Position numbers and translations under genes: made by a program. A stretch of 64,000 bases of DNA, from NCBI RefSeq assembly GCF_005144885.1, contig NZ_CP039690.1, positions 2,617,001 through 2,681,000 of the forward strand. Reading direction: 5' to 3'. The DNA comes from Phreatobacter stygius (GTDB lineage Bacteria > Pseudomonadota > Alphaproteobacteria > Rhizobiales > Phreatobacteraceae). Under the pieces are notes generated by a model. It was given only the letters and a program-made list of their open reading frames with translations. It was not told the origin of the DNA and ran no database searches. Positions 1 through 17,700 of the stretch are shown here, in pieces (the stretch's first letter is position 1; every line of letters begins with the position of its first letter).

Positions 1-1
1 G

Positions 2-583
2 GTCTCGGTCCATGTGGTCGAGCTGACCGATGACGACGCGGTCAAGGTCGCGACCGAGGCGACCGTTGCCCGCCACGGCGGCATCGACATCCTGGTCAAC
101 AATGCCGGCATTACCGGCGGCAATGGCAAGCTCTGGGAGCTGGCGCCAGAGGTCTGGCGCCGGGTCGTCGACGTCAATCTGGTCGGGCCCTACCTGACCT
201 GCCGGGCGATCGTGCCGGTCATGCTGGCCAAGGGTTATGGCCGCATCGTCAACATCGCCTCGATCGCCGGCAAGGACGGCAATCCCAATGCCTCGCATTA
301 TTCGGCGTCGAAAGCCGGCCTGATCGGCCTGACCAAATCGCTCGGCAAGGAACTGGCGACCAGCAACATCCTGGTCAATTGCATCACCCCGGCGGCGGCC
401 AAGACCGAGATCTTCGACCAGATGAAACAGGAACATATCGACTTCATGCTGTCGAAGATCCCGATGAGCCGCTTCCTGCAGGTCGACGAGGCCGCCGCCA
501 TGATCGCCTGGCTGTCGTCGGAAGACTGCGCCTTCTCCACCGGAGCGGTGTTCGACATCTCAGGCGGCCGCGCGGTCTATTAA
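2..583 (+). CDS. SDR family oxidoreductase, 5' end outside window
   Basis: This is the C-terminal part of a short-chain dehydrogenase/reductase; the reading frame is open to the left edge, so the N-terminal nucleotide-binding glycine motif is missing. What remains shows the NNAG motif (in LVNNAGITG), the catalytic Ser in VNIAS, and the active-site Tyr and Lys in HYSASK, all in the order of a classical SDR of about 250 residues. It should therefore be a working NAD(P)H-dependent oxidoreductase. The substrate cannot be told from sequence. It ends 78 bases before nasT and is probably a separate unit. There is a GTG codon near the left edge at position 14, but it lies too far into the fold to be the real start. 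Confidence 0.85.
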   Translation, partial: VSVHVVELTDDDAVKVATEATVARHGGIDILVNNAGITGGNGKLWELAPEVWRRVVDVNLVGPYLTCRAIVPVMLAKGYGRIVNIASIAGKDGNPNASHYSASKAGLIGLTKSLGKELATSNILVNCITPAAAKTEIFDQMKQEHIDFMLSKIPMSRFLQVDEAAAMIAWLSSEDCAFSTGAVFDISGGRAVY

Positions 584-661
584 TCCATGTGAGAGCTTCG
601 GGCTCACACTGGCCCGAAAGCTGCTTGTCCCCGATGAGCCGGCGGTGAGACACTTGCCGCC

Positions 662-1267
662 ATGACCTCGGAGACGGCCCTGACCGACCTCAGCCTGACC
701 ATCGCGATCGTCGATGAAAGCCGCTCGCGCGCGGCGATCATCGAGGATGGTCTGCGCGAGGCCGGTTATGTCCACATCGTTCATATCGACGAGATGACCA
801 ATCTGCTGGCCAGGCTCTACCAGATCGATCCGGACGTCGTGGTCATCGATCTGGAAAACCCGTCGCGTGACGTGCTCGAACAGCTCTTCCAGGTGTCGAA
901 GCTGGTCAAGCGGCCGGTCGCCATGTTCGTCGACCAGTCCGACACCGGCATGATCAACAAGGCGATCGAGGCCGGCGTCTCGGCCTATGTCGTCGACGGC
1001 ATGAAGAAGGAGCGCGTCAAGGGCATCCTGGACATGTGCATTGCCCGGTTCCACGCCTATGCCCGGCTGCAGGCCGAGCTCGACCAGGCGAAATCGGCGC
1101 TGGAGGAACGCAAGGTCGTCGAGCGCGCCAAGGGCCTCTTGATGAAGCACAAGGGCATCACCGAGGAGGAGGCCTATGCCCAGCTGCGCCGCCGCGCGAT
1201 GAACGAGAAAAAGAAGATCGCCGAAATCGCCGCCGCGGTGGTGACCGGTCTGGAGATGCTCGGATGA
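662..1267 (+). CDS. nasT: ANTAR-domain response regulator, NasT-type antiterminator
   Basis: 201-residue protein with an N-terminal receiver-like domain (about 10-125, Asp63 in the VVVIDLEN strand) and a C-terminal ANTAR RNA-binding domain (about 140-195, with the ERAKGLLMK helix and the AYAQLRRRAM segment). The family member NasT binds paired hairpins in the leader RNA of nitrate-assimilation operons and stops premature termination; NasS holds it inactive without nitrate or nitrite. The assignment is supported by the next gene, a NasS-like protein starting inside the nasT stop codon, and by a matching two-hairpin leader at 2621-2653 before nrtA. Start ATG has GGTGAG about 10 bases upstream. 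Confidence 0.9.
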   Translation: MTSETALTDLSLTIAIVDESRSRAAIIEDGLREAGYVHIVHIDEMTNLLARLYQIDPDVVVIDLENPSRDVLEQLFQVSKLVKRPVAMFVDQSDTGMINKAIEAGVSAYVVDGMKKERVKGILDMCIARFHAYARLQAELDQAKSALEERKVVERAKGLLMKHKGITEEEAYAQLRRRAMNEKKKIAEIAAAVVTGLEMLG

Positions 1268-2421
1268 AACAGGTCTCCGTCGGTTTCATTCCACTGACCG
1301 ATGCCGCGCCCCTGATCGCGGCGCGCGAATGCGGTTTCGCGGCCAAAGCCGGCATCGAACTCGATCTGGTGCGCGAGGTCTCCTGGGCCAATATTCGCGA
1401 CAAGCTGTCGGTCGGGCTGTTCGACGCGGCCCATATGCTGGCGCCGATGGCGTTGGCGAGCGCGCTCGGCATCGGCCATGTCCGGGTGCCGCTCAGCGCG
1501 CCGCTGTCATTGGGCCTGAATGGCGACGCCATCACCGTCTCCAGCGCCTTTGCCGGCGAGATGGGCGAAATCCCCGACGATCCCTTCGCCGCCGTCGGGC
1601 TGATCGCCGCGGCGCTGAAACGGCGCGAGAGCGCCGGCCTCGCCCCGCCGGCCTTCGGCATCGTCTTCCCGTTCTCGACCCACAACTACCTGCTGCGCGC
1701 CTATCTCGCGGCCGGCGGCATCGATCCCGACCGCGACGTGCAGCTTGTGGTGATCCCGCCCTCGCTAATGGTCAGCTCGCTGGAAAAAGGGCTGATCGAC
1801 GGCTTCTGCGTCGGTTCGCCGTGGAACTCGGTGGCGGTGGACAAGGGCATCGGCCGGATCATCGCGGCCGGCGCCTCGCTCTATTCTGCCATGCCGGGCA
1901 AAGTCCTGGCGGTCGGCGATGCCTATGCGTCAGCTAACGCGCCGGCCGCCGTCGCGCTGGTCGCGGCCGTCGTCGAGGGGGCTGCCTGGTGTGCGGCGCC
2001 GGCCAATGCGGAAGCCCTGGCGCTGATGTTGTCGGCGCCCGAATACCTCGATGTCCCCGCCGAACTGATCCGCCGGACCATCGACGGCCGCCTGACTTTT
2101 GCGCCCGGCGACAACCCCGTCGCGATCCCCGATTTTCTCCGCTTCGACGTGCCACGGGCGGTCAGGCCCGATGCCGGCCGTTTCCTCTGGCTCTACGCCC
2201 AGATGGTGCGGTGGAGGCAAACCCGCTTCAGTCCTGGCGCGGTATCGCGCATTCGGGCCTGGGCGGTCCAAGGCCTGGCGGCGGCCACCAGCCACGACAT
2301 GCCGGACGACGTCGTCGGCGACCCTGTCGGCAGCCGGGTTGAGCCGGCCTTCGACCCCGATGGAATCGAAGCCTATCTCGACGGCTTCGACGCCCGCGGA
2401 CAGGTCCGCTCGACCACCTGA
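1264..2421 (+). CDS. nasS: NasS-like nitrate/nitrite sensor, NrtA/CmpA fold
   Basis: 385-residue protein of the nitrate-binding periplasmic-protein superfamily (shares the LTDAAPLIAA start of the fold and the FCVGSPWNS segment with the transporter protein NrtA at 2817). Unlike NrtA it has no signal peptide: the fold begins at residue 4. That points to a cytoplasmic sensor rather than a transport component. Its ATG overlaps the nasT stop (ATGA), implying coupled translation and a roughly equal supply of the two partners. In Paracoccus and Azotobacter NasS releases NasT when it binds nitrate or nitrite; the same role is inferred here. The open frame extends upstream to 1036, but that part overlaps nasT and is not counted. 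Confidence 0.87.
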   Translation: MKQVSVGFIPLTDAAPLIAARECGFAAKAGIELDLVREVSWANIRDKLSVGLFDAAHMLAPMALASALGIGHVRVPLSAPLSLGLNGDAITVSSAFAGEMGEIPDDPFAAVGLIAAALKRRESAGLAPPAFGIVFPFSTHNYLLRAYLAAGGIDPDRDVQLVVIPPSLMVSSLEKGLIDGFCVGSPWNSVAVDKGIGRIIAAGASLYSAMPGKVLAVGDAYASANAPAAVALVAAVVEGAAWCAAPANAEALALMLSAPEYLDVPAELIRRTIDGRLTFAPGDNPVAIPDFLRFDVPRAVRPDAGRFLWLYAQMVRWRQTRFSPGAVSRIRAWAVQGLAAATSHDMPDDVVGDPVGSRVEPAFDPDGIEAYLDGFDARGQVRSTT

Positions 2422-2427
2422 CCGGAA

Positions 2428-2440
2428 TGTGCACTGCACA
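2428..2440. promoter_or_regulatory. 13-bp palindrome TGTGCA-C-TGCACA
   Basis: A perfect inverted repeat with a one-base centre lies 7 bases after nasS. It resembles the TGCAC/GTGCA half-sites of NtrC-type enhancers, but the arms are closer together than the usual NtrC site, so the binding protein is unknown. It sits roughly 150 bases upstream of the predicted start site of the nrtA transcript, a normal distance for a sigma-54 enhancer. Confidence 0.35.
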
Positions 2441-2516
2441 ATGAAGCGGCACGCTGCGAAACCCTGCGGCACTGGCAGGGCCGGCCCGCGACCCACGACC
2501 GGATCTGAATAATTCG

Positions 2517-2540
2517 ATCAAGCGATTGATATCGCTTGAT
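2517..2540. promoter_or_regulatory. 24-bp dyad upstream of the nrtA promoter
   Basis: Perfect 10-bp arms ATCAAGCGAT and ATCGCTTGAT flank a TGAT centre. The dyad is centred about 58 bases upstream of the predicted transcription start of the nrtA operon and 34 bases upstream of the -24 element. Size and position suit an activator or repressor operator. The half-sites do not form an Fnr box (the TTGAT/ATCAA order is reversed). The cognate regulator is not identified. Confidence 0.5.
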
Positions 2541-2559
2541 GATCGCGTGAAGCCAGCGC

Positions 2560-2576
2560 CTGGCACGATCTTTGTA
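2560..2576 (+). promoter_or_regulatory. Sigma-54 type -24/-12 promoter of the nrtA operon
   Basis: CTGGCACG, four bases, then TTTGTA follows the sigma-54 consensus: GG at 2562-2563, exactly ten bases, then GT at 2574-2575 where GC is usual. Transcription should start near 2587. That gives a leader of about 230 nt carrying the ANTAR hairpins and the terminator. Nitrate-assimilation operons are commonly sigma-54/NtrC dependent, so the context fits. The GC-to-GT change at -12 is the one departure. Confidence 0.65.
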
Positions 2577-2620
2577 TCTCTTTCATCTGTCCGAGGGTGA
2601 CGCCCGTCGCCGGAAGATAA

Positions 2621-2653
2621 GGCCCAGCGCAGGGCCATCAGCAATGCCGCTGA
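2621..2653 (+). promoter_or_regulatory. ANTAR-target dual hairpin in the nrtA leader RNA
   Basis: Two adjacent 5-bp stems each close a six-base loop. Hairpin 1 is GGCCC / AGCGCA / GGGCC (2621-2636). Hairpin 2 is TCAGC / AATGCC / GCTGA (2638-2653). Both loops have A at position 1 and G at position 4, the signature recognised by ANTAR proteins. One base separates the stems. A NasT gene lies 1.4 kb upstream and a terminator lies 55 bases downstream, as expected for nitrate-dependent antitermination. Confidence 0.82.
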
Positions 2654-2660
2654 CAGACGT

Positions 2661-2728
2661 TCGACACCCTGAGGCCCGCACGCGAAAGCGTCGTCGGCGA
2701 AGTGTCGAGCCGAGTCGGCGGCTTTTTT
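2661..2728 (+). terminator. Conditional terminator and alternative pairing before nrtA
   Basis: The intrinsic terminator is AGCCG (2708-2712), loop AGTCGG, CGGCT (2719-2723), running into six T (2723-2728). Two competing pairings use its 5' arm or the adjacent bases: TCGACAC (2661-2667) with GTGTCGA (2702-2708), enclosing a small ACGC-GAAA-GCGT hairpin, and TCGGC (2694-2698) with GCCGA (2709-2713). The second excludes the terminator stem and is the likelier antiterminator. Which form NasT favours is inferred from known ANTAR systems. Confidence 0.65.
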
Positions 2729-2816
2729 GTGCCCGGAACCATCAGGGCGGTGCGCAAGGGAATCGCATTCGAGACTGCATCATCTGGCGAACGGCCGCAG
2801 GACCAGGAACGAGAGA

Positions 2817-4139
2817 ATGACCGAAACCTCGACGAAATCTCGCATCGACGCCTTGCGGTTCGATCGCCGTGGCCTGCTGAAGGGAACGGCGGCGACCGCC
2901 GCCCTGCTCACCGCCGCCAGGGCCGCCCTTCCCGGCGGTGCCTTTGCTCAAGGCGCCGGGCCGGAGGTAAAGGGCACCAAGCTCGGCTATATCGCGCTGA
3001 CCGATGCCGCGGCGCTGATCATCGCCAAGGAAAAAGGCCTCTATGCCAAGCACGGCGTGCCCGACATGGACATCGCCAAACAGGCCTCCTGGGGCGCCAC
3101 GCGCGACAACATGGCGCTCGGCACCAAGGCGAACGGCATCGACGGTGGCCACATCCTCAGGCCGAAGACGCATCTCTACACGACCGGCAAGGTCATGCAG
3201 AACAACCAGCCTTTGCCGATGTACACGCTGCTCAACCTCAACGAGGACGGCCAGGCGATCTCGGTCTCCAATGAATACAAGGACCTGAACGTCCAGAAGG
3301 ATGCCTCGCCCTTGAAGGCCGCCTTCGAACGCAAGAAGGCGCAGGGCAAGGAACTGACCGCCGCCATGACCTTTCCGGGCGGCACCCACGATCTGTGGAT
3401 CCGCTACTGGCTCGCCGCCGGCGGCATCGACCCCGATACCGACATCAAGGTGATCACCGTGCCGCCGCCGCAGATGGTGGCGAACATGAAGGTCGGCAAC
3501 ATGGACTGCTTCTGCGTCGGCGAGCCGTGGAACGAACAGCTGGTCAACCAGAATATCGGCTACAGCGCGCTGACCACCGGCGAGCTCTGGTTCAAGCACC
3601 CGGAGAAGATCCTCGGCATGCGCGCTGACTGGGTCGATGCCAATCCCAAGGCAACCCAGGCCATCCTGATGGCCGTGATGGAAGCCCAGATGTGGTGCGA
3701 CAGGATGGAGAACAAGCAGGAACTCGCCGAGATCGTCGGCCGCCGCCAATGGTTCAACGTGCCGGTCAACGACATCAACGGCCGGCTGCGCGGCGACATC
3801 AATTACGGCAATGGCCGCACCGTCGCGGGGTCCAACCTGCGCATGAAGTTCTGGGGCGAGGGCGGCGCGTCGTCTTATCCCTGGAAGAGCCTCGACACCT
3901 GGTTCGTCGCCGAGAACATCCGCTGGGGCAAGTTCGAGCCGACGACCGACATCAAGGCCCTGGTCGACCGGACCAACCGGTCTGATCTCTGGCTTCAGGC
4001 CGCCAGGACGCTTGGCGTCGCCGGCGTCCCGACGTCGGATTCGCGCGGCGTCGAAACGTTCTTCGACGGCGTGAAATTCGATCCGGCCGATCCGGCCGCC
4101 TATCTCAAATCGCTGAAGATCAAGCGCGCCCAGGTCTAG
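2817..4139 (+). CDS. nrtA: Nitrate ABC transporter substrate-binding protein
   Basis: 440-residue periplasmic nitrate-binding protein of the NrtA/CmpA family. The N-terminus carries a twin-arginine signal: RFDRRGLLKG at 14-23, a hydrophobic stretch, and a likely cut after AFA (44). The mature part starts with the same LTDAAA segment seen in NasS. ATG 2817 is chosen over the longer open frame because it places the Tat motif correctly and has GAGAGA just upstream; the longer version would run through the leader terminator. First gene after the antitermination leader; nrtB follows 113 bases on. It delivers nitrate to NrtB/NrtC in the inner membrane. Confidence 0.92.
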   Translation: MTETSTKSRIDALRFDRRGLLKGTAATAALLTAARAALPGGAFAQGAGPEVKGTKLGYIALTDAAALIIAKEKGLYAKHGVPDMDIAKQASWGATRDNMALGTKANGIDGGHILRPKTHLYTTGKVMQNNQPLPMYTLLNLNEDGQAISVSNEYKDLNVQKDASPLKAAFERKKAQGKELTAAMTFPGGTHDLWIRYWLAAGGIDPDTDIKVITVPPPQMVANMKVGNMDCFCVGEPWNEQLVNQNIGYSALTTGELWFKHPEKILGMRADWVDANPKATQAILMAVMEAQMWCDRMENKQELAEIVGRRQWFNVPVNDINGRLRGDINYGNGRTVAGSNLRMKFWGEGGASSYPWKSLDTWFVAENIRWGKFEPTTDIKALVDRTNRSDLWLQAARTLGVAGVPTSDSRGVETFFDGVKFDPADPAAYLKSLKIKRAQV

Positions 4140-4252
4140 CCGTCCAGGCCCGAAAGCCCGCCCGAGTCCGGAGCCGGCTCTTGCGAGCCCCGCCCAATAC
4201 ATCGACCGCCCGGAACTCACCGGACGGTCCGTCCTCCCGGAGATCGCCTCTC

Positions 4253-5161
4253 ATGTCGCGTGCCGCCTTGAAAGCCGTCGAGATGCCGCCAGCCGCCCAT
4301 GCCGCCCCTCAGGGCGGCGCCGAGGTGATCAAGCTTGCGCCGGCCAAGACCCGGAGCCTCGCCGCCTGGCTGAAGCCGAAGGCCATCGGTTTCGTCGCGA
4401 CGGTGCTGCCGCCGCTGATCATGCTGGCGCTGATCATGCTGGTCTGGGAGATCTTGTGCTCGGGACGCGGCGCGACGCTGCCGCCGCCCTCGCAGGTCTG
4501 GAAGGAGGCAAGCGACCTCATTCTCGATCCCTTCTTCGTCAATGGCAGCCAGGATATCGGGCTCGGCTGGCGCGTGCTGACCTCGCTTCAGCGCGTCGCC
4601 ATCGGCTTCGGCCTGTCGGCCGTGGTCGGCATCCTGGTCGGCGCCCTTGTCGGCCAGTCGACCTGGGCCATGCGCGGCCTCGATCCGATCTTCCAGGTGC
4701 TGCGCACGGTGCCGCCGCTGGCCTGGCTGCCGATCTCGCTCGCCGCCTTCCGCGATGCCAATCCGAGCGCCATCTTCGTCATCTTCATCACCGCGATCTG
4801 GCCGATCCTGATCAACACCTCGGTCGGCATCCGCAACATTCCGCAGGACTATCGCAACGTCGCCGCGGTGCTGCGGCTGAACCATTTCGAGTTCTTCTGG
4901 AAGATCATGCTGCCCTCGGCAGCGCCCTATATCTTCACCGGCCTGCGCATTGGCGTGGGCCTGGCCTGGCTCGCCATCGTTGCCGCCGAGATGCTCACCG
5001 GCGGCGTCGGCATCGGCTTCTTCATCTGGGATGCCTGGAACTCGTCCAAGCTCCCCGACATCATCGTGGCGCTCGTCTATATCGGCCTGATCGGCTTCGT
5101 TCTCGACCGCCTGATCTCCGGCCTGGCCACCATCGTCACCCGCGGCACGGCAGCGAACTGA
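4253..5161 (+). CDS. nrtB: Nitrate ABC transporter permease
   Basis: 302-residue inner-membrane permease of the NrtB/SsuC family. A polar N-terminal tail of about 45 residues precedes the first membrane segment (about 47-68). The EAA-like coupling loop is visible in NVAAVLRLNHFEFFWKIMLP, which contacts the ATPase. ATG 4253 is the start that fits the family length; an upstream in-frame start near 4181 would add only unrelated residues. nrtC follows after 11 bases. It forms the membrane channel for nitrate with NrtA and NrtC. Confidence 0.9.
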   Translation: MSRAALKAVEMPPAAHAAPQGGAEVIKLAPAKTRSLAAWLKPKAIGFVATVLPPLIMLALIMLVWEILCSGRGATLPPPSQVWKEASDLILDPFFVNGSQDIGLGWRVLTSLQRVAIGFGLSAVVGILVGALVGQSTWAMRGLDPIFQVLRTVPPLAWLPISLAAFRDANPSAIFVIFITAIWPILINTSVGIRNIPQDYRNVAAVLRLNHFEFFWKIMLPSAAPYIFTGLRIGVGLAWLAIVAAEMLTGGVGIGFFIWDAWNSSKLPDIIVALVYIGLIGFVLDRLISGLATIVTRGTAAN

Positions 5162-5172
5162 GGACAAGCCCC

Positions 5173-5976
5173 ATGGCCAAGCAAGTTCCCTATCTCCTCA
5201 TCGAGGCCGTCGAAAAGACCTATAGCCGCGGCGGCACCTCGAACAATGTGCTGCACGACATCACGCTCGCCATCGACAAGGGCGAATATGTCTCGATCAT
5301 CGGCCATTCCGGCTGCGGAAAATCCACCCTGCTGAACATCGTGGCCGGCCTGACCCAGGCCACCACGGGCGCCGTGCTCTTGGAAAACAAGGAGGTCAAT
5401 GCACCCGGGCCCGACCGCGCCGTGGTGTTCCAGAACCATTCGCTGCTGCCCTGGCTGACCGTCTACGACAATGTCCGCATGGCGGTCGACAAGGTCTTCG
5501 CCGGCCGGAAGTCCAAGGCCGAGCGGCACGACTGGACCATGCACAAGCTCGACCTCGTCCATATGGGCCACGCCAGGGATCGCCGGCCGGGCGAGATTTC
5601 CGGCGGCATGAAACAGCGCGTCGGCATCGCCCGCGCCCTGGCGATGGAACCGAAGATCCTGCTGCTCGACGAACCCTTCGGCGCGCTCGATGCGCTGACC
5701 CGCGCCCATCTGCAGGACTCGATCATGCAGATCCATGCCACCTTGAACAACACCATGATCATGATCACCCATGATGTCGACGAGGCAGTGCTCCTGTCCG
5801 ACCGGATCATCATGATGACCAACGGCCCGGCCGCAACCATCGGCGAAATCCTGGACGTCACCCTGCCGCGGCCGCGCAAGCGGCTCGAACTGGTCGCCAA
5901 CCCGACCTATATCAAGGCCCGCGAGGCGGTGCTCAAGTTCCTCTACGAACGCCATAAATTCGTCGAAGCGGCCTGA
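5173..5976 (+). CDS. nrtC: Nitrate ABC transporter ATP-binding protein
   Basis: 267-residue ABC ATPase. Walker A is GHSGCGKST (44-52). The signature is a variant, SGGMKQR in EISGGMKQRVGIARAL, followed by Walker B ILLLDEPFGALD and the switch His in MITHDVDEA. This is the short NrtD-like form without the C-terminal NrtA-like regulatory domain seen in cyanobacterial NrtC, so post-translational control by that domain is not expected. The gene starts 11 bases after nrtB and ends 10 bases before the flavoprotein gene. Confidence 0.9.
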   Translation: MAKQVPYLLIEAVEKTYSRGGTSNNVLHDITLAIDKGEYVSIIGHSGCGKSTLLNIVAGLTQATTGAVLLENKEVNAPGPDRAVVFQNHSLLPWLTVYDNVRMAVDKVFAGRKSKAERHDWTMHKLDLVHMGHARDRRPGEISGGMKQRVGIARALAMEPKILLLDEPFGALDALTRAHLQDSIMQIHATLNNTMIMITHDVDEAVLLSDRIIMMTNGPAATIGEILDVTLPRPRKRLELVANPTYIKAREAVLKFLYERHKFVEAA

Positions 5977-5986
5977 GGCGCCGGCC

Positions 5987-7195
5987 ATGTCGGAACCCCT
6001 CGTCGTCATTGGCAATGGCATGGCATCGGCGCGCTTCGTCGAGGAACTCGGCAAGCAGGCGCTCGGGCGCTATTCGGTGCTGGTCATCGGTGCCGAGCCG
6101 ACGCTCGCCTATAACCGCGTCCTGCTCTCGTCGCTGCTCGCCGGCGAGGTCGAGGCCGGCGATATCGAGCTGAAGTCGAAAAGCTGGTGGCGCAGCCAGG
6201 GCGTCACCCTGGTCTACGGCCGGCGCGCCGTGACGATCGACCCGGCGGCACGCACGGTCGCGCTCGAGGGCGGCGCCTGCATTCCCTTCGCCAGGCTGGT
6301 GCTCGCCACCGGCTCGCTGCCGATCCGCCTGCCGAAACCCGGCATGGACCTTCCAGGCGTGCTCACCTTCCGCGACCACGACGACGTCGCCGCCATGCTG
6401 GCGGCAACCGGACCGGCGACCCGGGCCGTGGTCATCGGCGGCGGATTGCTCGGCATCGAGGCGGCCCATGGGCTGGCCCGCACCGGCACCCATGTCACGC
6501 TGATCCACCTGATGGACCGGCTGATGGAACGCCAGCTCGACCGGGAGGCCGCCAACCTTCTGAAGCGGGCTCTGGAGGAGCGCGGCATCACCGTGCTGCT
6601 CGGCGCCGACACCGCCGCCATCGAGGGCGACGGCTGCGTCGAGGCCGTCAGGCTTGCCGATGGCCGCGTTCTCGCCGCCGACATGGTGGTCTCCGCCGTC
6701 GGCATCCGGCCGAATGCCGAGCTCGCGCGTTCCGCCGGGCTGACCCTTGGCCGCGGCATTGTTGTCGACGACCAGATGACCACGTCGGACCCCGCCATCC
6801 ACGCCATTGGCGAATGCGCCGAGCACCGCGGCATCTGTTACGGGCTGGTCGAACCGGCCTATGAACAAGGCCAGGTGCTTGCCCGTCATCTCGCCGGCAA
6901 GGCCGCCGCCTATGCCGGCACGGTGCTTTCGACCAATCTCAAGGTTTCTGGCGTGCCGGTCTTCTCGGCCGGCGATTTCATCGGCGCCGACGGCACCGAA
7001 ATCATCGTCTGGCGCGACCCGGGCCTTGGCACTTATCGCAAGCTGGTGCTGCGGGACGACGTGCTGGTCGGCGCGGTGCTGTTCGGCGAAACCGGCGACG
7101 GGCTCTGGTATCTCGACCTGATCCGCCGTGGCGAACCGCTCGGCCGGCTGCGCGAGGCGGTGGTCTTCGGACGCGCCTTGGCGGAAGCGGCCTGA
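5987..7195 (+). CDS. nasB: NAD(P)H/FAD oxidoreductase of assimilatory nitrate reductase
   Basis: 402-residue flavoprotein of the pyridine-nucleotide-disulfide type. It has an FAD-binding motif near the N-terminus (VVIGNGMASARF) and an NAD(P)-binding motif at mid-protein (VVIGGGLLGIEAA). It is like the N-terminal half of NirB and the NasC/NasB electron-transfer subunits. It has no Fe-S cysteine cluster or sirohaem domain, so it is not a nitrite reductase. Placed 1 base before nasA, it most likely passes electrons from NAD(P)H through the BFD-like [2Fe-2S] tail of NasA to the molybdenum site. The symbol follows usage in related bacteria and is less certain than the function. Confidence 0.85.
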   Translation: MSEPLVVIGNGMASARFVEELGKQALGRYSVLVIGAEPTLAYNRVLLSSLLAGEVEAGDIELKSKSWWRSQGVTLVYGRRAVTIDPAARTVALEGGACIPFARLVLATGSLPIRLPKPGMDLPGVLTFRDHDDVAAMLAATGPATRAVVIGGGLLGIEAAHGLARTGTHVTLIHLMDRLMERQLDREAANLLKRALEERGITVLLGADTAAIEGDGCVEAVRLADGRVLAADMVVSAVGIRPNAELARSAGLTLGRGIVVDDQMTTSDPAIHAIGECAEHRGICYGLVEPAYEQGQVLARHLAGKAAAYAGTVLSTNLKVSGVPVFSAGDFIGADGTEIIVWRDPGLGTYRKLVLRDDVLVGAVLFGETGDGLWYLDLIRRGEPLGRLREAVVFGRALAEAA

Positions 7196-7196
7196 G

Positions 7197-9887
7197 ATGA
7201 CCGCGCACGCCGGCAGCCCCCGACCGGTCGCCACCGCCTGCCCCTATTGCGGCGTCGGCTGCGGCGTCCTGGCAAGCACCGGGCCGGATGGCGGCGTGAC
7301 CATATCCGGCGACCCCGCCCACCCGGCCAATCGCGGCCGGCTCTGCGTCAAGGGCTCGACGCTGGGCGAAACCCTGTCTTTGGACGGCCGGCTGCTGCAC
7401 CCGATGATCCGTGCGGGCTCCGGTGTGCTGCAACGGGTGTCCTGGGCAAGCGCGCTCGATGCGGTCGCCGAGGGCTTTGCCCGCATCGCCCGCAACCACG
7501 GCCCCGACGCAACCGCCTTCTATCTCTCCGGTCAGTTGCTGACCGAAGACTATTACGTCGCCAACAAGCTGATGAAGGGCTTTCTCGGCACGGCCAATGT
7601 CGACACCAATTCCCGGCTGTGCATGGCCTCTTCGGTCGCCGGCCACCGGCGCGGTTTCGGCTCCGACACGGTGCCTGGAAGCTATGACGACCTGGATCAG
7701 GCCGATCTCCTGGTGCTGGTCGGCTCGAATGCGGCCTGGTGCCACCCGGTCCTCTGGCAGCGCATGGTCGCCAACAAGCAGAGCCGGGGTGCCCGCATCG
7801 TCGTCATCGACCCGCGCCGGACCGCAACATCGGCCGAGGCCGACCTCATGCTGGCGATCCGGCCGGGTACCGACGGCACCTTGTTTGCCGGCCTGCTGGT
7901 TCATCTGGCCGAGACCGGCACGCTCGACCAGGCCTATATCGCCGCCCATACGGAAGGTTTCGACCAAGCCCTGGAACGCGCCCGCGAGCTCGGCCCTTCG
8001 ATCGAGGCCACCGCCAGGGCCTGTGGCCTCGCCGGTGGCGACGTCAGGCGGCTGTTCCATTGGTTTCGCACCACCGAGCGCTCGGTCACGCTCTATAGCC
8101 AGGGCGTCAATCAGTCGGCCCAGGGCACCGACAAGGTCAGCGCCATCCTCAATTGCCATCTCGCCACCGGGCGGATCGGCCGCGCCGGCATGGGGCCGTT
8201 CTCGCTGACCGGCCAGCCGAACGCCATGGGTGGCCGCGAGGTCGGCGGCCTCGCCAATATGCTGGCCGCCCATATGGGCTTTTCCAGCGTCGAGATCGAT
8301 CGGGTCCGCCGCTTCTGGGGCGCCCCGCGGATGGCGGAACGTGAAGGCCTGAAGGCGGTCGCCATGTTCGACGCCATTGAAAAGGGAACGATCAAGGCGC
8401 TCTGGGTGATGGCGACCAATCCGGCCGCCAGCCTGCCGCGCGCCGATGCCGTGCGCCGGGCCATGGCCGGCCTCGATCATTTTGTCGTCTCCGAAAATGT
8501 GCTGTCCAACGACACGATCAATTCCGGTGCCCGGATCCTGCTGCCGGCCGCCGCTTGGGGCGAGAAGGACGGCACGGTCACCAATTCGGAACGCCGGATC
8601 ACCCGGCAGCGGCGGTTCCTGCCATTGCCGGGCGAAGCCAGGCCCGACTGGTGGATCGTCGCCGAGGTGGCCAAGCGGCTCGGTTTTGCCGAGGCCTTTT
8701 CCTGGCCTGATGTCGCCAGCGTCTTCCGCGAACATGCCGCGCTCTCCAGTTTCGAGAACCAGGGCAGCCGCGATTTCGATATTGGCGGCCTCAGCCAGCT
8801 GTCGGCAACGGAGTTCGAGGCGCTCGAGCCGGTGCAATGGCCGGTGCGCAGGCGAAGCGACACCGCCGACAAACGTTTCTTCGCCAATGGCGGCTTCTTC
8901 ACCCCGGACGGCAAGGCCCGTTTCATCGCCATCGAGGCACCGGGCCTGCGAACCGAGCCGGATGCTGCGCACCCTTATGTCCTCAATACCGGCCGCATGC
9001 GCGACCACTGGCATACGATGACGCGCACCGGCAAGGCGCCGACCCTCGGCCGCCATGCGATCGAGCCGGCCGTCGAGATCCACCCTCGGGACGCGGCGGC
9101 GGCGAGCCTTGCCGCGGGCGATTTCGCCGAGGTGTCGACGGCCCACGGTCGGGTGACCTTGCGGGTGGTGATCGATGAAGGCCAGGCGCCGGGCTCGCTG
9201 TTCGTGCCCATCCACTGGACCGCCGAGACGGCCAGCCATGGCCGGGTCGGGGCCTTGGTGCAGCCCGCCACCGATCCGTTTTCCGGCCAGCCCGAAATGA
9301 AGGCGACACCGGCGGCGATCAGCCGCGTGGCGCCGGGCATCGAGGGTTTCATCCTGTCCCGTTCCGCCGTCGCCTTGCCCGCGGGCACCCGTTGGGCCCG
9401 CGCGGCCGTCGCGGGCGGCCTCGGCACCGTGTTCTCGGCTCCCGGTGGCATCGACGGCGCGGTGATCGCTGCCCATCTGAAGCCGCCCGGCGGCGCCGTC
9501 AGCGAAATGGTCGACCTCGGCCGCGGCGTCTATCGCGCGGCGATCTTCGATGGCGCGCGGTTGGTGGCGGTGATCTTTGTCGCCGCCGGAGGCCGGCCGT
9601 CCTGGTCCTGGATCGAGGCGCAATTCGGAGCGGCCGAGCTGTCGCCCCTGGCGCGCAAGGCCCTGTTGTCCGGCCGGGCACCTGACGGCATGGCCGACGC
9701 CGGTCCGACCATCTGCGCCTGCTTTGCCATTGGCCTGACCGCCATCAAGGCGGCGATCGCCGAGGGCGCCTGCGACGTCGACGCGGTCGGCCGTGCCCTG
9801 AAGGCCGGCACCAATTGCGGGTCGTGCCGGCCGGAGATCAAGAAGCTCATCGAGACCCGGCCGGTCACGGCGCCGGCGCTGGCCTGA
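7197..9887 (+). CDS. nasA: Assimilatory nitrate reductase, catalytic subunit
   Basis: 896-residue molybdopterin oxidoreductase. The N-terminal [4Fe-4S] site is C15, C18, C22 (CPYCGVGCG) and C50 (GRLCVKG). The long Mo-bis-MGD region follows, and a C-terminal BFD-like [2Fe-2S] domain (CAC...CGSC, about 840-885) accepts electrons from the flavoprotein. There is no signal peptide, so the enzyme is cytoplasmic and assimilatory, reducing nitrate to nitrite. ATG 7197 is separated from the nasB stop by one base. The family length (about 880-900) matches. The enzyme's product needs a nitrite reductase, which is not in this window. Confidence 0.93.
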   Translation: MTAHAGSPRPVATACPYCGVGCGVLASTGPDGGVTISGDPAHPANRGRLCVKGSTLGETLSLDGRLLHPMIRAGSGVLQRVSWASALDAVAEGFARIARNHGPDATAFYLSGQLLTEDYYVANKLMKGFLGTANVDTNSRLCMASSVAGHRRGFGSDTVPGSYDDLDQADLLVLVGSNAAWCHPVLWQRMVANKQSRGARIVVIDPRRTATSAEADLMLAIRPGTDGTLFAGLLVHLAETGTLDQAYIAAHTEGFDQALERARELGPSIEATARACGLAGGDVRRLFHWFRTTERSVTLYSQGVNQSAQGTDKVSAILNCHLATGRIGRAGMGPFSLTGQPNAMGGREVGGLANMLAAHMGFSSVEIDRVRRFWGAPRMAEREGLKAVAMFDAIEKGTIKALWVMATNPAASLPRADAVRRAMAGLDHFVVSENVLSNDTINSGARILLPAAAWGEKDGTVTNSERRITRQRRFLPLPGEARPDWWIVAEVAKRLGFAEAFSWPDVASVFREHAALSSFENQGSRDFDIGGLSQLSATEFEALEPVQWPVRRRSDTADKRFFANGGFFTPDGKARFIAIEAPGLRTEPDAAHPYVLNTGRMRDHWHTMTRTGKAPTLGRHAIEPAVEIHPRDAAAASLAAGDFAEVSTAHGRVTLRVVIDEGQAPGSLFVPIHWTAETASHGRVGALVQPATDPFSGQPEMKATPAAISRVAPGIEGFILSRSAVALPAGTRWARAAVAGGLGTVFSAPGGIDGAVIAAHLKPPGGAVSEMVDLGRGVYRAAIFDGARLVAVIFVAAGGRPSWSWIEAQFGAAELSPLARKALLSGRAPDGMADAGPTICACFAIGLTAIKAAIAEGACDVDAVGRALKAGTNCGSCRPEIKKLIETRPVTAPALA

Positions 9888-14745: not shown

Positions 14746-17700
14746 TCAGGTCTTCTTCTGCATCGCCTCTTTCAACGCCAGGAGCTTGGCGAAAGGCGAA
14801 TTCGGATCGGGTTCACGCTCCTTGCGCGGCGCCTGCTCGGCGCGCAAGGCGCGAAGGTCCGGCCGGTCGTCGCGCTGCGGCCGGTCACGACGCTCACCAT
14901 CGCCACCTTTGCCGCGGAAGTCCTTGAACTTCGAGAAATCGCGCCGCGGCGGACGGCCGCCGGCGCGCTGCTCACCCTCGGTCGCCCCGTCGCGCTGCGG
15001 GAACGGCCGGCGGCTCTGGCCACCGTCACGCTTCTCCGGGGCGGGCTGACCATCACGCGGCTGGCCGCCAGGTGCCTGGCCATCCCGTGCCTGCCCATCC
15101 CGTGGCTGGCCGTTGCGCTGCTGGCCCTGGCGCGGCCGGAAGTCGCGACGCTGGCCTTGCTCGCCCGGCTTGTCGCCGCCGCGTTCGCCACCCCGGCGAA
15201 AATCCCGGCGTGCCGGCCGCTCGCCGTCGATGCGGCCGCCCGGACGCCAGACCTCGACCATGGCCGGTTCCGCCGGCTTGGCATCCACCGCTGCCGGTTC
15301 GACCATGGCCGTCTCGGTGGCAGCCGCCGCGGTCGTCGCCTCAGAGCCTTCCGTCTCGATCGTCGTGGTTTCGGTGACCACGTCCGGCTCGGTAGTTGCC
15401 GTCTCGACGGTTTCCGCCGCACCCGACACCGCCTCGGCGGCCATTTCGGTCACGGTTTCGACGGCTGGTTCTTCCGCGGGCGGCTCCGCCTGCTCCGGCA
15501 CGGCAACCGCTTCCGGCTCAGTCGGCGCGATCGGCTCGGCGGCGACCGGATCTGTCTCGGCCACACCCTCGACGGCCGGCGCATCCGCCGCTTCGGACCC
15601 TGCGGTCTCGACCGATGCGAAAGTCTCGGTGGCGACGGGATCGGCCTCGGCCGGAGCTTCGACCGGCGTGGCGACCGGCGTATCCGCCGGCGTGGCGGCA
15701 GCCGGAACCACCTCGAGCTTCGGCGTCGGCGCCGGACGCTTGTCCGACCGGTAGCCGAGACCCTTCAGGATCGAGGCGAAATCTTCCCCCGAGCAACCGA
15801 CCAGCGAGGTCATGCCGACAGTCGCAGTGAAGCCGCCGCCCGGGAAATGCCCCGCCGGCTCCGGCGTCGCCGTGCCGGGCCGCCAAGCCAGCGCCGGACG
15901 GATCAGATCGGCCAGGCGCTCCAGGATATCGACACGCACGGCGCGCGGCCCAAGCGCGCGGAAGCCGACGAAACGGTAGAGATCCTTGTCGATCTCCGGA
16001 TCGACCGCGATCGAGGTCCGGCCGGACGCGGCCAGCGCCGGCAATTCGGTCAGGCCCTTGGCCTCCAGCTTGTCCGCCTTCAGCATATAGAGCTGCAGCG
16101 CCAGCCCGCGCGGCGCCGGCTTCAAGGTTGCCGGCAGATAGATGTGATAGGCGCCGAAACGGACGCCGAGCTTGCGCAACGCGGCGCGCGCCTCCTGGTC
16201 GAGCTGCTTGACGTCTTCCGAGATCTTGGCCCGCTCGATGACCCCGAGCGCCTCGGCGAGCTGGAAGGCGACGCCGCGGGCAAGGCCCTGCAATTCTTCG
16301 GAGCGCTCGAGCGCGGTGACCGGGCCGAGCAATTTCTCGATCTGCGCGTGGACCCACAGATCGAGCCGCGCCTGCACCTGGTCGCGCGGCGTTCCCGTCA
16401 GATGTTCGTCGGCCAGGATGCGGACGCGCGGCGACAGGACCTTGTCGCCGCCGACCAGCTTGGCGACGGCTTCGCCGTGCCAGCGAATGGTGCCGTCGTT
16501 CGACAGGATGAAGGCCTCGTCGCCTGAGCCGTTGAGCTTCTCGGCACGCGCGTCGATCTCGCCGCCCAAGGCCTTGGACGCAGCGGCCCGCAATGCCTTG
16601 CCGGCCTCGCCGTCGCCGGCCGACGGATCCGGCGTGAAGCGGAAACCGTCCAGCCGCCCGACATGTTGACCTTCGACAGTGACGTCTCCGGTCCTGGTAA
16701 TCTCGGCCTCAAGCATTGTGTTTTCCCTTAGGCGCCGCATGAGCACGCTCGTCCTGCGGTCGACGAAGCGCTGCGTCAAGCGTTCGTGCAGTGCATCCGA
16801 CAATTTGTCTTCCACCCGTCGCGTCTCCGCTTCCCAGTGAACGGGGTCGTCGACCCAGTCCGGGCGGTTGGCGGCAAAGGTCCAGGTGCGGATATGGGCG
16901 ATGCGATTCGACAAGGTATCGATGTCGCCATCGATCCGATCAGCGAAGGCGACCTGGGCGGCGATCCAATCCGACGGAATCCGCCCGGATCGGCCCGTGA
17001 GGAAGCCAAAAATGGTGGTTACGAGGTCCGCATGGCTCGCCAGCGATATCTTGCGATAGTCCGGCATCAGGCAGGCGTCCCACAATTTCGACACCGCCGC
17101 CCTGCCTTTGGCGCGGTCGCGCACGTCGTCGTCACGCAGCGCCAACTCGAGCACGCGCTGGTCCTCGGCGATCGGAGAACGGGTCAATCCCGGCTCCGTC
17201 GGCACCACGTCGAGGCTCGCGCGCAAGGTCTCGACCGATGAGAAATTGAGCTCGGTGTTGCGCCATTGCAGCACTTTGACGCCGTCGAAGGAATGGGCCT
17301 CGAGCGCCTGGACCAGCTCGGGCTCGAACGGCGGGCAGCGCCCCGTGGTCCCGAACGTGCCGTCACGGCTGGATCGCCCGGCGCGTCCGGCGACCTGGGC
17401 GAATTCGACCGGGTTCAGCCGGCGGAACTGGTAGCCGTCGAATTTGCGGTCGGCCGCGAAGGCGACATGCTCGACATCCAGGTTGAGGCCCATGCCAATG
17501 GCGTCGGTGGCGATGAGGTAATCGACATCGCCCGACTGGTACATTTCGACCTGGGCGTTGCGGGTGCGCGGCGACAGCGCGCCGAGCACCACCGCCGCGC
17601 CGCCGCGCTGGCGGCGGATCAGTTCGGCGATGGCATAGACCTCGTCGGCCGAGAAGGCGACGATGGCCGAACGCCGCGGCAGGCGTGTGATCTTCTTCTC

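Follow-up and report, generated by a model that had tools for sequence, protein, structure and literature searches.

Nitrate assimilation is under two-level control in Klebsiella and Paracoccus (PMC5424462), and nitrate or nitrite frees NasT from NasS (PMC3795266). For ANTAR targets, a model of exchange between the hairpin P2 and a terminator (PMC3369931) has been revised to one in which a dimer contacts each hexaloop in succession (PMC8934654), and sigma-54 promoters have already been predicted ahead of nitrate ABC-transporter genes of Pseudomonadota (PMC12316311).

Here we describe the leader of nrtA in Phreatobacter stygius, which lies in a window of 64,000 nucleotides (the whole stretch of DNA that was analyzed; Table 1). 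As in the nas region of Paracoccus denitrificans, nasTS lies directly upstream (PMC5424462; PMC3795266), and the arrangement resembles the NasT targets of P. denitrificans and Bradyrhizobium, in which leader hairpins precede the structural genes and a nitrate-released NasT antiterminator is combined with Ntr input (PMC5424462; PMC3795266; PMC6759348). In P. denitrificans the NtrC site that was tested is upstream of nasT, and none is reported as yet identified at nasA (PMC5424462); in contrast, the nrtA leader of the window has its own sigma-54 element and a conserved NtrC-like site, and nrtA is the first structural gene, unlike in the Paracoccus and Bradyrhizobium systems. Two tandem hexaloop hairpins with A at loop position 1 and G at position 4 (A1/G4), together with an intrinsic terminator, are shared with nasF/NasR of Klebsiella oxytoca (PMC7496416), where initiation is likewise under Ntr control (PMC5424462). 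However, nitrate is sensed by the NIT domain of NasR itself (PMC7496416), whereas the window has a separate sensor protein, NasS. The dual hexaloop motif and the mutual exclusion of P2 and terminator are also features of eut/EutV in Enterococcus faecalis (PMC3369931; PMC8934654). The nrtA leader is a well-conserved, ordinary example of NasS/NasT antitermination under Ntr/sigma-54 control, a kind of switch that is already known.

Gene Neighborhood of the Leader

The genome is a single contig of 7.35 Mb. A cognate nasT-nasS pair directly 5′ of the leader had been proposed in an earlier note on this DNA, and the Pfam families fit: a receiver plus ANTAR protein is encoded beside an NMT1_2-type protein, which we take to be NasS from its family, its position, and known systems, and the pair adjoins nitrate assimilation genes (Table 1). 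The nasS start overlaps the nasT end by 4 nt, and the leader between nasS and nrtA is 395 bases long. The FAD oxidoreductase encoded after nrtC may serve in electron supply. Among named records, NrtA has its nearest relatives in a Hyphomicrobiales MAG, where identity is 95%, in a Proteobacteria MAG (88%), and in two MAGs of Phreatobacter (88% and 90%).

Table 1. Features of the nrtA region in window coordinates, and the long-linker leaders compared with it
Feature	Position	Strand	Description
nasT	662..1267	+	receiver + ANTAR antiterminator; Pfam Response_reg 1.6e-8, ANTAR 1.1e-20
nasS	1264..2421	+	NMT1_2-type nitrate sensor; Pfam NMT1_2 6.7e-69
NtrC-like site TGCACAATGAAGCGGCA	2435..2451	.	TGC-N11-GCA, inside conserved block 2428-2451
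24-bp dyad ATCAAGCGAT-TGAT-ATCGCTTGAT	2517..2540	.	perfect 10-bp arms
Sigma-54-type -24/-12 promoter TGGCACGATCTTTGTA	2561..2576	+	TGGCACG-N4-TTGTA; GG-N10-G exact
ANTAR hairpin P1	2621..2636	+	GGCCC[AGCGCA]GGGCC; loop AGCGCA 2626-2631, A1/G4
ANTAR hairpin P2	2638..2653	+	TCAGC[AATGCC]GCTGA; loop AATGCC 2643-2648, A1/G4
Terminator 5′ arm GCCGCTGAC	2646..2654	+	bases in common with P2 loop and 3′ side
Inner hairpin closing the long terminator loop	2659..2710	+	9-bp stem 2659-2667/2702-2710 plus apical stem
Terminator 3′ arm GTCGGCGGC + T6	2714..2728	+	arm 2714-2722, T6 2723-2728
nrtA	2817..4139	+	nitrate ABC transporter substrate-binding protein; Pfam NMT1_2 3.8e-102
nrtB	4253..5161	+	nitrate ABC transporter permease; TIGR01183 over cut-off
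nrtC	5179..5976	+	nitrate ABC transporter ATPase; TIGR01184 over cut-off
NirB-N-terminal-like FAD oxidoreductase	5987..7195	+	TIGR02374 405.8 bits, below cut-off of 578.35
Assimilatory nitrate reductase-like molybdoenzyme	7194..9887	+	C-terminal BFD domain; Pfam matches; NCBIfam matches below cut-off
Bosea-type leaders			L027, L029-L032, L034-L039, L041, L042, L053, L057, L061, L062
Rhizobium/Agrobacterium-type leaders	~2.76-2.91 kb in each		L065, L072-L078, L080, L081, L083, L084, L087-L099, L101, L102

Tandem ANTAR Hairpins

The leader contains two tandem stem-loops, P1 and P2, with hexanucleotide loops that both have A at position 1 and G at position 4, as had been read from the sequence earlier. 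Base 2637 alone separates them if the P2 stem is counted as 5 bp; with a 4-bp stem the linker is 2 nt. An Rfam scan of 1–6000 at E values up to 10 returned five matches; each fell well short of the gathering score of its family, and none was on the leader hairpins or of ANTAR type.

Seventeen sequences, the window among them, served as seeds for covariance model R1 (alignment A1); they were chosen for pairing, with a loop spacing limit of 8–32 nt. Four of the nine P1/P2 pairs change on both sides among these seeds and 99.3% of cells are paired, covariation that, given this choice of seeds, is supporting evidence only. In the search for ANTAR RNAs in relatives, proposed beforehand as a check, R1 matched 27 of 100 sources at E ≤ 0.0014; dropping four same-contig duplicates leaves 23, six of which are not seeds, and weaker matches (E 0.026 to 0.85) were left uncounted. 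As an independent test, model R2 drew on 10 sequences, two of them identical, none of which came from the genus of the window, and it finds the leader as the sole significant site in its own genome (41.6 bits, E 6.9e-5; next site 24.4 bits, E 0.27). With R1 the leader site scores 50.3 bits and the next 23.1. These genome searches scored the best 150 of ~16,000–17,000 first-look candidates and cover the short-linker form only, so that long-linker forms would be missed; within this scope, neither model gave a second strong short-linker target. A class-wide search of 385 genomes yielded four matches besides the window, three before an NrtA-like frame and one before a porin-like frame as judged by eye, and a NasS-like frame is just upstream in three of the four.

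Among 10 relatives of the Phreatobacter group, two have P1 loops that depart from A1/G4 (AACAGA in L005, GACGCT in L025), which counts against the switch reading. P2 loops starting with G were seen in L019 and L055.

Terminator and Predicted Switching Fold

In the predicted unbound fold, 2646–2654 pairs with 2714–2722 directly before the T6 run and around the inner hairpin, and the intrinsic terminator and P2 have bases in common. Folding of successive transcript lengths from 2587, which is an equilibrium calculation and not a kinetic one, has P1 and P2 both formed by 2655, with P2 lost as the transcript end moves from 2717 to 2721. The probability of P2 is 1.00 at transcript end 2655, 0.86 at 2670–2700, and 1.00 at 2717, and then 0.57, 0.06, and 0.00 at 2719, 2720, and 2721, where the terminator reaches 0.43, 0.93, and 1.00, respectively. 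The pairing probability of the inner hairpin is 1.00 once the transcript reaches 2710. Imposing P1 and P2 together costs 5.9 kcal/mol relative to the terminator fold.

The mutually exclusive pairings claimed in the earlier note hold in part. The T6 terminator is present and is exclusive with P2, but the strands proposed for the exchange, TCGGC (2694–2698) and GCCGA (2709–2713), pair with a probability of ≤0.004 at all 12 transcript lengths tested. A simple scan does pick up a 6-pair stem-loop followed by T at about 2709–2722, and one could envisage a local hairpin there that, with the TCGGC/GCCGA exchange, forms the terminator switch, so that P2 need not open. However, the local hairpin 2709–2712/2719–2722 before the T run has a probability of 0.000 at all 12 lengths, a fold with both this hairpin and P2 is less stable, by 9.5 kcal/mol, than the terminator that overlaps P2, and the terminator 5′ arm overlaps the P2 3′ arm in 74 of 94 relatives' leaders (duplicates removed, laxer threshold). 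We give the local-hairpin switch hardly any credence, and retain the exchange between P2 and the overlapping terminator.

Conservation among nrtA Leaders

The leaders compared comprise the window and 98 loci upstream of nrtA homologues (n = 99, with five same-contig duplicates); the sequences are related, and counts over them are not counts of independent events. A detector that requires an A1/G4 hexaloop hairpin to overlap the 5′ arm of a terminator, drawn up once the first examples had been seen, passes 77 of the 99 leaders; 10 dinucleotide-shuffled sets give zero or one pass each, 0.5 on average. With loop positions 1 and 4 set to each of the 16 letter combinations in turn, A/G gave 77 and the other 15 each gave 0 to 2. 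The detector fails on 22/99 leaders, which counts against the switch reading.

Among loci of named genomes, 64 of 80 have the P2/terminator motif. It occurs at 56 of the 61 that have nasS upstream or a nearby nasT, compared with 8 of the 19 that have neither (Fisher p = 1.8e-5, computed over related, non-independent sequences); the eight motif-bearing relatives without nearby nasS or nasT, all of the Rhizobium type, count against the switch reading. Five loci are motif-negative despite nasS or nasT (L028, L055, L056, L071, and L085). L071 and L085 are detector-negative yet give strong R1 matches, and in L028 and L055 a stem resembling P2 can be made out by eye, its loop starting with G in L055. 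In L056 a nasS-like frame runs almost up to nrtA, without a leader; this is a real exception and counts against the reading, and the NasT switch at nrtA seems either to have been lost from the L056 operon or never to have existed there.

Promoter and Upstream Sites

In the sigma-54 consensus, 10 bp separate GG at −24 from GC at −12. The −24/−12 element that had been reported for this leader is present with the exact GG-N10 spacing, though its −12 reads GT and not the canonical GC, and its position predicts a transcription start at ~2586. The pattern TGGC[AG]-N5 to N7-TTG[CAT][AT] is present in 79/99 nrtA leaders (75/94 without duplicates), compared with 1–5 per shuffled set (mean 2.9). The −12 reads TTGAA, TTGAT, or TTGTA in the Phreatobacter genus, that is, GA or GT, and the canonical TTGCA or TTGCT in many Rhizobium leaders. 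The genome encodes one RpoN and, as the matching enhancer-binding protein, one NtrC over its cut-off.

Upstream of this element, all 11 aligned leaders of the Phreatobacter group retain TGC[AG]CTGCACA and GGCA, and we infer that the site at 2435–2451 may be one for NtrC. NtrC sites are TGC-N11-GCA dyads in the enhancer position; the consensus in PMC5424462 has a central TT, which the site at 2435–2451 lacks. Two P-II genes are present in the genome: upstream of L133 we found TGGCACGCGACTTGAT, also without GC at −12, and a TGCACA-N7-GGCA site, and upstream of L132 neither a match to the promoter pattern nor such a site.

Transcription might instead begin at another, sigma-70 promoter or run on from nasTS, which is directly upstream, the −24/−12 match then being incidental; the non-canonical −12 and the adjoining nasTS speak for this possibility. 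Yet the frequency of the pattern in real as opposed to shuffled leaders, the absence of a sigma-70-like site from 2300–3000 in the window scan, and the −12 ahead of the P-II gene L133, which likewise is without GC, all argue against it. We consider another promoter very unlikely, and initiation at the sigma-54 element remains the preferred reading.

The earlier note also counted a 24-bp dyad among the elements of the switch. The dyad itself is present, with its 3′ end 21 bases before the start of the −24 element, and perfect 10-bp arms are improbable by chance (a dyad of such kind arose in 6 of 2000 mononucleotide shuffles of 2422–2816), which would suit a site for an activator or repressor responsible for the first level of control. 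However, in 10 other Phreatobacter-group leaders, where TGCAC...GGCA is kept, perfect inverted repeats in the 80 nt ahead of −24 reach arms of only 4–6 nt, as opposed to 10 in the window. The conserved switch probably does not include the dyad. It is also unique in the 7.35-Mb genome at up to three mismatches, and because of this a multi-copy operator is rejected. That the dyad sets the first level of control is highly improbable; the NtrC-like site and the sigma-54 element are the preferred candidates for that role.

Hairpin Spacing and Linkers

The very short linker between P1 and P2, singled out earlier as a detail worth testing, is real, but it is not unusual: tandem-type relatives have similar linkers, with a loop-to-loop spacing of 11 in the window, 10–13 nt in 17/17 seeds of A1 (picked with the limit of 8–32 nt), and 17 in L086. 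The 1–2 nt of the window compare with published ranges of 2–25 nt for ANTAR targets (PMC8164766) and, in contrast to the window, 5–12 nt for E. faecalis eut (PMC3369931). Published work treats the distance between P1 and P2 as critical. In eutP a linker of 3 or 14 nt drastically lowers induction (PMC3369931), and set against the effect of 3 nt the linker of the window counts against the switch reading. In vitro, 20 nt added to the linker abolished antitermination (PMC8934654).

Longer linkers are found in two further types of leader (Table 1), with spacings and lengths computed from the distances between leader elements. Bosea-type leaders (n = 17) have a loop spacing of 30–34 and a linker of 18–22 nt, and in their P1 a C-C mismatch sits directly beneath the C-G pair that closes the hexaloop; the mismatch is invariant in 13 distinct aligned sequences. 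RNAalifold found no conserved third hairpin in the Bosea linkers (alignment A4), where only short per-sequence stems were seen by eye. Rhizobium/Agrobacterium-type leaders (n = 27) have a loop spacing of 40–43 and a linker of 31–34 nt that holds a 6-pair stem, with 97.3% of cells paired and three pairs changed on both sides among 25 distinct sequences. This stem was drawn from these same sequences, which were selected on the P1 loop and P2 letters and not on the stem; RNAalifold returned the same stem plus one pair.

These observations lead us to suggest, tentatively and with some doubt, that NasT-type targets have no fixed linker length and that the placement of the hexaloops in space is what is selected. 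The third hairpin of the Rhizobium type would then have a strut-like role, reuniting P1 and P2 for the hand-over of one NasT dimer. In near-zero-linker leaders (the window type, with loop spacing mostly 10–17), P1 and P2 are presumably stacked. Among the matches listed from CC-licensed PMC papers, supplements aside, no title or abstract dealt with a hairpin inside an ANTAR linker, which is a weak negative.

Other ANTAR Genes and Candidate Targets

The only other ANTAR gene of the genome is AmiR-like (L002 1340–1461, minus strand, near 6.50 Mb) and sits between genes for an AmiC-like and a urea-type substrate-binding protein (names by eye). In the leader of this gene, GACATA and AGCAAA are candidate hexaloops that adjoin a terminator and carry A, not G, at position 4. 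A search at E 1e-20 gave no match to this second ANTAR protein in 11 other genomes of the genus. The second protein may read A4 instead of G4 loops; among its relatives, L120 (47% identical) has A4 by eye and L142 (50% identical) has G4. Downstream of AmiR-like genes in L121–L123, L125, and L131, a GGC[TATGTA]GCC-like hexaloop hairpin is seen by eye at the base of a terminator, with T or G at position 1 and G at position 4, and is perhaps a separate class of ANTAR target.

Proposed Mechanism and Implications

The analysis provides the anatomy of the leader, its conservation, a predicted folding order, and the gene neighbors. The two-level switch put forward in the earlier note, comprising a sigma-54 promoter, NasT-responsive ANTAR hairpins opposed to a terminator, and an adjoining nasT-nasS pair, is supported by sequence comparison (overlap in 77 and promoter in 79 of the 99 leaders). 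We hold at a probability of roughly 0.9 that the nitrate-assimilation operon is under a two-input gate, in which sigma-54/NtrC initiation is combined with NasT antitermination; NtrC binding, NasT binding, and nitrate-driven release are inferred by analogy with the described systems.

Under nitrogen shortage, phosphorylated NtrC at 2435–2451 would activate sigma-54 polymerase at 2561–2576, and on the transcript from ~2586 P1 and P2 would form first. Without nitrate, NasS would keep NasT bound; with the polymerase at ~2720, nascent GTCGGCGGC would pull the 3′ side out of P2, and the 9-bp terminator, braced by the preformed inner hairpin, would form and end transcription in T6. When nitrate is present, NasS would let go of NasT, which, once free, would bind P1 and P2 and hold P2 folded, allowing read-through into nrtA.

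A search of CC-licensed PMC papers, supplements aside, found none treating Phreatobacter, nitrate, and nasT together, again a weak negative. With the present comparison, a complete gate with both Ntr and NasT inputs is documented for a Phreatobacter-like genome, and the assignment of the strands that switch is corrected. Searches restricted to linkers of 2–25 nt, the range given in PMC8164766, would, our results suggest, miss the Rhizobium class. Leaders with 1–2-nt linkers and those with hairpin-bearing linkers of 31–34 nt offer natural tests that could tell whether it is the length of the linker or the geometry of the hairpins that ANTAR proteins measure.
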